Source: Poseidonibacter ostreae (GTDB taxonomy: Bacteria; Campylobacterota; Campylobacteria; Campylobacterales; Arcobacteraceae). From it: 48,230 nucleotides of DNA. The notes beneath the pieces were generated by a model that did no database searches, had not been told where the DNA came from, and saw only the letters and a list, made by a program, of their open reading frames with translations. The stretch is taken from NCBI RefSeq assembly GCF_009208075.1, contig NZ_WFKJ01000022.1:1-48230 (forward strand), read 5' to 3'. Below, piece after piece: positions 1,583-2,426 of the stretch; the first letter of the stretch is position 1; each line of letters starts with the position of its first letter. The translations under genes were made by a program, and so were the position numbers.

Positions 1583-2002
1583 ATGTCAATAAAAGAGAAG
1601 CAAAATATTACATTAAATTATGAATTAAAACTAAATGATGAAATAATTGATACAAACATGGATAAAGAGTCTATATCTTTTGTATATGGTTCAGGACAAA
1701 TAATAAGTGGTTTAGAATTAGGAATAAAAGATATGAATGAAGGTGAAACTAAAATCATAAAAGTAAGTCCTAAAGACGCTTATGGAGAATATGATGAAAA
1801 ACTCTCTGAAACTCTTGATATTTCTGAGTTTGAAGGAATTGATTTACAAATTGGAATGGTTTTAGAAGCTGAAAATGATAGAAAAGAACCTATTAGAGCA
1901 ACTGTAACAGATGTAACAAAAGAACATGTTACAGTAGATTACAATCACCCATTAGCAGGTTGTGAATTAGAATTTAAAGTTATTATAAAATCAATTATCT
2001 AA
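1583..2002 (+). CDS. slyD: FKBP-type peptidyl-prolyl isomerase, SlyD-like
   Basis: A 139-residue cytoplasmic FKBP-fold prolyl cis-trans isomerase and chaperone. The FKBP core is split by an insert-in-flap region (about residues 68-118). The motifs YGSGQIISGLELGI and VTVDYNHPLAGCELEF are typical of SlyD. The His/Cys-rich metal-binding tail of enterobacterial SlyD is absent, as is common outside that group, so a role in nickel delivery is less certain. A clear AGAAGGA Shine-Dalgarno precedes the ATG. The 3' end overlaps by 12 bp the convergent UGA-containing thioredoxin-like gene. Confidence 0.9.
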   Translation: MSIKEKQNITLNYELKLNDEIIDTNMDKESISFVYGSGQIISGLELGIKDMNEGETKIIKVSPKDAYGEYDEKLSETLDISEFEGIDLQIGMVLEAENDRKEPIRATVTDVTKEHVTVDYNHPLAGCELEFKVIIKSII

Positions 2003-2368
2003 CAAGTAAGTTTTAACACTTTGCTTTATTAAAGCAGGTGTTTTAACACCAAGTTCTCTTTCTTGAATTTCATCATCTTTAAAATATATTAAAGTGGGAA
2101 TTACCCTGACACTAAACTCTTTTGCTAAACTTTTTTGTTTATCGATATCAACTTTATAAATCACTACATCATCTTGCTTGTTTTTATTATAGATTGTTAA
2201 GCTTTCACCTAAAGCCTTACAAGCTCCTCAAGTTTGCGAATAAAAGTCTAAGATTACCTTTTTACCAATTGTTTTCTCTTCAAAATTTTCTTGAGTTAAA
2301 TCTTCAAAGGCAAAAAGTATACTATTCAAAAAAAATAAAGAGACTAAAACTAGTAGTTTAATTTTCAT
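1991..2368 (-). CDS. Thioredoxin-like selenoprotein (UGA = Sec47), periplasmic
   Basis: Reading through one UGA at 2228-2230 gives a 125-residue protein with a signal peptide (residues 1-20, hydrophobic, ending ILFA) and a thioredoxin fold: KKVILDFYSQT, the active site U-G-A-C (47-50), the VDID strand, and cis-Pro in VRVIPTLIYF. The UGA sits exactly at the first, nucleophilic Cys of CxxC. The frame is otherwise intact to a final UGA at 1991-1993. An AAAGGA Shine-Dalgarno lies 5 nt before the ATG at 2366-2368. A SECIS-like hairpin lies just 3' of the UGA. Sec insertion would need SelA, SelB, SelC and SelD from elsewhere in the genome. The likely role is a periplasmic thiol or peroxide redox carrier. 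The alternative is a pseudogene with a single nonsense codon. I infer a real selenoprotein. Confidence 0.8.
2198..2219 (-). promoter_or_regulatory. Bacterial SECIS-like hairpin
   Basis: In the mRNA sense, TAAG, a bulged G and CTTT pair with AAAG and CTTA around the loop AGGTG. The stem starts 9 nt after the UGA and the loop AGGU occupies nt 18-21 after it. From memory, the E. coli fdhF SECIS has an AGGUCU loop beginning at the same distance, also above a bulged stem. SelB recognises the GU in this loop. The stem is AU-rich, as expected for this genome. Confidence 0.7.
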
Positions 2369-2426
2369 ATGAGTCCTTTTATATTATGATTAATAATTAT
2401 AACAATTTTTCACTAAAGGATTAAAT

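Follow-up and report, generated by a model that had tools for sequence, protein, structure and literature searches.

Minus-strand positions 1991–2368 of a 48,230-nt stretch of Poseidonibacter ostreae DNA (contig NZ_WFKJ01000022.1; the whole stretch is called the window) almost certainly hold a genuine, conserved gene for a small, probably exported thioredoxin in which selenocysteine (Sec), encoded by UGA, takes the nucleophilic position. The frame, predicted fold, conservation, hairpin, Sec machinery and DsbD gene described below were all read from genome sequence. The features of the locus were as follows.

1991–2368, minus strand: coding sequence of the predicted Sec-containing thioredoxin, 125 codons and a TGA stop, with the UGA at codon 47 read as Sec.
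2374–2379, minus strand: Shine-Dalgarno-like AAAGGA preceding the ATG.
2309–2368, minus strand: signal-peptide-like N terminus, residues 1–20, MKIKLLVLVSLFFLNSILFA, common to relatives.
2228–2230, minus strand: TGA codon 47, predicted Sec at the nucleophilic position of U-G-A-C; relatives have either U or C here.
2219–2221, minus strand: TGT codon of Cys50, the resolving Cys of UxxC, invariant across aligned relatives.
2194–2222, minus strand: SECIS-like hairpin with a 4-bp lower stem (UUGU/ACAA), an A-A mismatch, a 7-bp apical stem and the loop AGGUG (2206–2210).
2096–2098, minus strand: Pro91 at the thioredoxin cis-Pro position, invariant in the alignment and placed there in the predicted structure.
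1583–2002, plus strand: convergent FKBP-type peptidyl-prolyl isomerase, overlapping the thioredoxin 3′ end by 12 bases; this neighbour is conserved in the nearest genome and is given as context only.

The minus-strand frame was exactly as the first-pass annotation had claimed, with 125 codons, the TGA at codon 47 as the sole interruption and a good Shine-Dalgarno sequence upstream. The translation opened with MKIKLLVLVSLFFLNSILFAFEDLTQENFEEKTIGKKVILDFYSQTUGACKALGES, which includes the active site. The length of the open frame was rejected as evidence for a gene, since another 14 frames in the window, each 100 codons or longer, were likewise interrupted by a single TGA. The gene stood above chance because thioredoxin homology lay on both sides of the TGA, relatives had the same TGA codon, dN/dS downstream was 0.075, and the hairpin covaried. 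It appeared to stand alone, convergent with the FKBP-type isomerase gene. The terminator of the frame at 1991–1993 was TGA too. The SECIS model gave no match at this codon and relatives terminated at its position with other stop codons; therefore, it was taken as the true stop. A second Sec at the terminal TGA was rejected, there being no SECIS, and the conserved frame beyond it lay antisense to the last part of the FKBP gene.

The Pfam Thioredoxin model (PF00085) spanned residues 23–118, across the TGA, with an E-value of 1.4e-19 and 70.4 bits against a gathering score of 23.5. The NCBIfam thioredoxin equivalog TIGR01068 scored 78.5 bits, under its curated cut-off of 96.8; the protein is thioredoxin-like and was not filed as the equivalog. 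The best solved chain by sequence was Helicobacter pylori thioredoxin, and U was opposite its first Cys, in agreement with the claim that the UGA aligns with the first Cys of CxxC. The structure was predicted with U entered as C. The predicted fold was that of a standard thioredoxin (mean pLDDT 86), in which helix 2 began with U47-x-x-C50 and Pro91 occupied the cis-Pro position. TM-scores against thioredoxin crystal structures were 0.73–0.79 by query length. The thioredoxin fold and cis-Pro noticed earlier were thus borne out by the PF00085 match, the predicted fold and the invariant P91. The N terminus was hydrophobic, ending LFA before FE, and was conserved across relatives; a helix at residues 4–14 was predicted with low confidence. 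Judged solely from this signal-peptide-like N terminus, the thioredoxin is probably exported to the periplasm.

The host genome (2.96 Mb) is close to that of Poseidonibacter lekithochrous A1R12 (G003), whose copy encoded a 94% identical protein with TGA at the same codon. Within the genus, UGA was found at this codon in G003 and in a further genome (G002), and Cys in another (G004), in which the gene was otherwise intact; the active-site stretch was FYTIGUSAC in G002 and FYTIGCSAC in G004. Comparison of the window gene with the G003 copy gave a dN/dS of 0.03 upstream of the UGA and 0.075 downstream. Such strong purifying selection behind the UGA indicates that translation continues beyond the codon. 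That the gene is a decaying pseudogene ending at codon 47 is very improbable: the standard code stops the frame there and no intact ORF was listed, but the TGA recurs in a separate genome, dN/dS stays low after it, no other disruption was found, and UGA forms occur family-wide. The earlier argument from the intact remainder against random decay also stood, as near relatives have UGA or Cys at the codon without other disruption.

A scan of named genomes with the single protein as query returned few relatives. Across Arcobacteraceae, the residue aligned with codon 47 was U or C; both the Cys-containing and the UGA-containing relatives that the first-pass annotation had proposed to look for were found. 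The UGA form of the subfamily was present in 20 of 104 genomes of the family, these UGA relatives being non-independent samples. Sampling 299 genomes of the order revealed just one UGA form outside the family. selB was present in 19 of the 20 UGA-form genomes (Fisher P 0.003, kinship ignored), and the exception was 86% complete. UAG in place of UGA was rejected, because the "1 TAG" flags, raised in three genomes, marked normal stop codons at the C terminus.

The SECIS-like hairpin lay immediately downstream of the UGA. Its loop AGGUG began 18 nt past the UGA, with G in the apical loop. In 17 distinct Sec sequences, 92.5% of cells were paired, far above slid versions. Three pairs (16-30, 17-29, and 19-27 of alignment A1) showed compensatory variation, amounting to 17 two-sided changes. 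One sequence (L014) was omitted from the 17; its stem was shifted by one base, and 5/7 were paired in the common register. In 22 Cys sequences, 69.4% were paired with 4 two-sided changes, and there was no excess over shuffles. The Cys relatives were mostly without the hairpin. Total pairing of the window hairpin gave P 0.0065 under a codon-preserving shuffle; several relatives were individually non-significant, and pairing in AT-rich relatives was partly due to composition. The single-sequence fold of the window hairpin was unexceptional against shuffles (z −1.09).

A model trained on these hairpins was used to search the whole genome. The convincing matches were two thioredoxin genes only, the window hairpin being among the model's own sequences. 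A weak match on contig C123 was rejected, having neither TGA nor frame. No Rfam family reached its gathering threshold within the window. In the P. lekithochrous genome, the second paralogue (L021, 1495–1872), a Cys form with CPSC, kept all 11 pairs and an AGGTA loop. This hairpin is probably a fossil, left behind when Sec recently gave way to Cys.

In the host genome, selA (549 bits), selB (290 bits) and selD (347 bits) all scored above their curated cut-offs. selB lay directly after selA, and selD had its own in-frame TGA at the AAGUAAK position. A tRNA-Sec (selC) candidate with a full-length model match and a UCA anticodon lay beside selA-selB on the opposite strand. It scored 43 bits, slightly below the Rfam gathering score of 47; epsilonproteobacterial tRNA-Sec has been reported to be atypical, with a 7 bp acceptor stem (PMC4607533). 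The alpha subunit of formate dehydrogenase, FdhA, also had an in-frame TGA (motif ARIUHSS). With selA, selB, selD and the tRNA-Sec candidate found, the genome therefore encodes the Sec pathway, with other recognisable selenoproteins for it to serve. Lack of selB or selC had been named as grounds for abandoning the Sec reading, and neither lack was encountered. A SelW (Rdx) homologue was sought in the genome and was not found. The FdhA gene (L095, 1465–3849) and the selD gene (L041) share one contig (G000:C70).

Reading of the UGA by leaky suppression, or as Trp, would also make use of the open conserved frame after the codon, as any readthrough could. This is very unlikely: aligned relatives have Cys and not Trp, most forms already have a Trp just before the UGA (TWU), the UGA comes with the hairpin, and the genome encodes a complete Sec machinery along with further UGA selenoproteins. 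That the TGA is a misread or misassembled Cys codon is extremely unlikely, for although a single base change would turn TGA into TGT or TGC and there are Cys forms, TGA stood at the same codon in independent assemblies, including the separate genome of the 94% identical protein, 18 further genomes had UGA forms of the subfamily, and the hairpin was a feature of Sec forms. The Sec-containing thioredoxin proposed in the first-pass annotation was thus supported by homology, UGA/Cys alignment, the hairpin and the Sec machinery.

For the Sec-containing thioredoxin, the following mechanism is proposed. Sec-tRNA would be made by SelA, SelD and tRNA-Sec. SelB would bind the hairpin just 3′ of the UGA and deliver Sec into the U-G-A-C active site in the cell. 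After export, the protein may act as a periplasmic thiol/selenol-disulfide oxidoreductase with Sec as the nucleophile. Sec47 would attack the disulfide of a substrate, and Cys50 would then resolve it. One full-length DsbD gene was found in the genome. DsbD is a plausible electron donor, and re-reduction would probably be carried out by it.

A tree of 51 members required five Sec/Cys changes, at least four of which were forced by well-supported branches. It is fairly likely that, in this probably exported thioredoxin subfamily of Arcobacteraceae, Sec and Cys have replaced each other at the catalytic position repeatedly, and in recent times. In G002, two genes lie in tandem, one a UGA form (VWUGSC) and the other a Cys form that has diverged (TWCDIC) (L022/L038; G002:C1:911447-912215). 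The host genome encodes another UGA thioredoxin of this subfamily (TWUGSC), divergent next to selO (L083, G000:C121; 3676–4053 and 2061–3515). selO also adjoins UGA forms of the subfamily in further genomes, other genera included.

The Sec-containing thioredoxin (Trx, PF00085, UxxC) is listed among the selenoprotein families of prokaryotes that have been verified by experiment (PMC13188914; earlier PMC1794560). The present subfamily shares with it the thioredoxin fold, UxxC with a Sec nucleophile, SelB-type machinery and a UGA with SECIS, and differs in its signal-peptide-like N terminus and its near-confinement to Arcobacteraceae among the genomes searched. For Epsilonproteobacteria, a single annotated thioredoxin selenoprotein is on record (PMC4607533); by its description, it belongs to the same bacterial class and the same protein kind. 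Marine metagenomes are rich in Trx-like selenoproteins (PMC2398784); again by description, Trx-like 1, 2, and 3 share UxxC, many Cys homologues and a marine setting with the present subfamily. Cytosolic H. pylori Trx (PDB 6bkv) has the same fold, with 32% identity in the structural match, but has Cys for Sec, a CGPC motif and no signal peptide. No papers joining Arcobacteraceae and selenocysteine were found in a search that left subscription journals mostly outside. The window gene is a well-supported addition to the already known class of Sec-containing UxxC thioredoxins.

Ordinary gene callers would drop or truncate such UGA genes. Hence, counts of both thioredoxins and selenium use are probably too low for this family, which is widespread and largely marine. 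The most useful part of the finding is the repeated Sec/Cys exchange. Together with the Cys gene that has an intact SECIS-like hairpin, this exchange provides matched natural pairs for gauging the contribution of selenium to an exported thioredoxin. If true, the fossil SECIS in a Cys gene and the Sec and Cys members within one genome would form a natural system for asking why bacteria choose selenium.

Elsewhere in the window, positions 569–1507 encode a protein whose N terminus is signal-like and whose middle resembles a coiled coil; its C terminus, which contains an HEIAH motif, is matrixin-like (Peptidase_M10).
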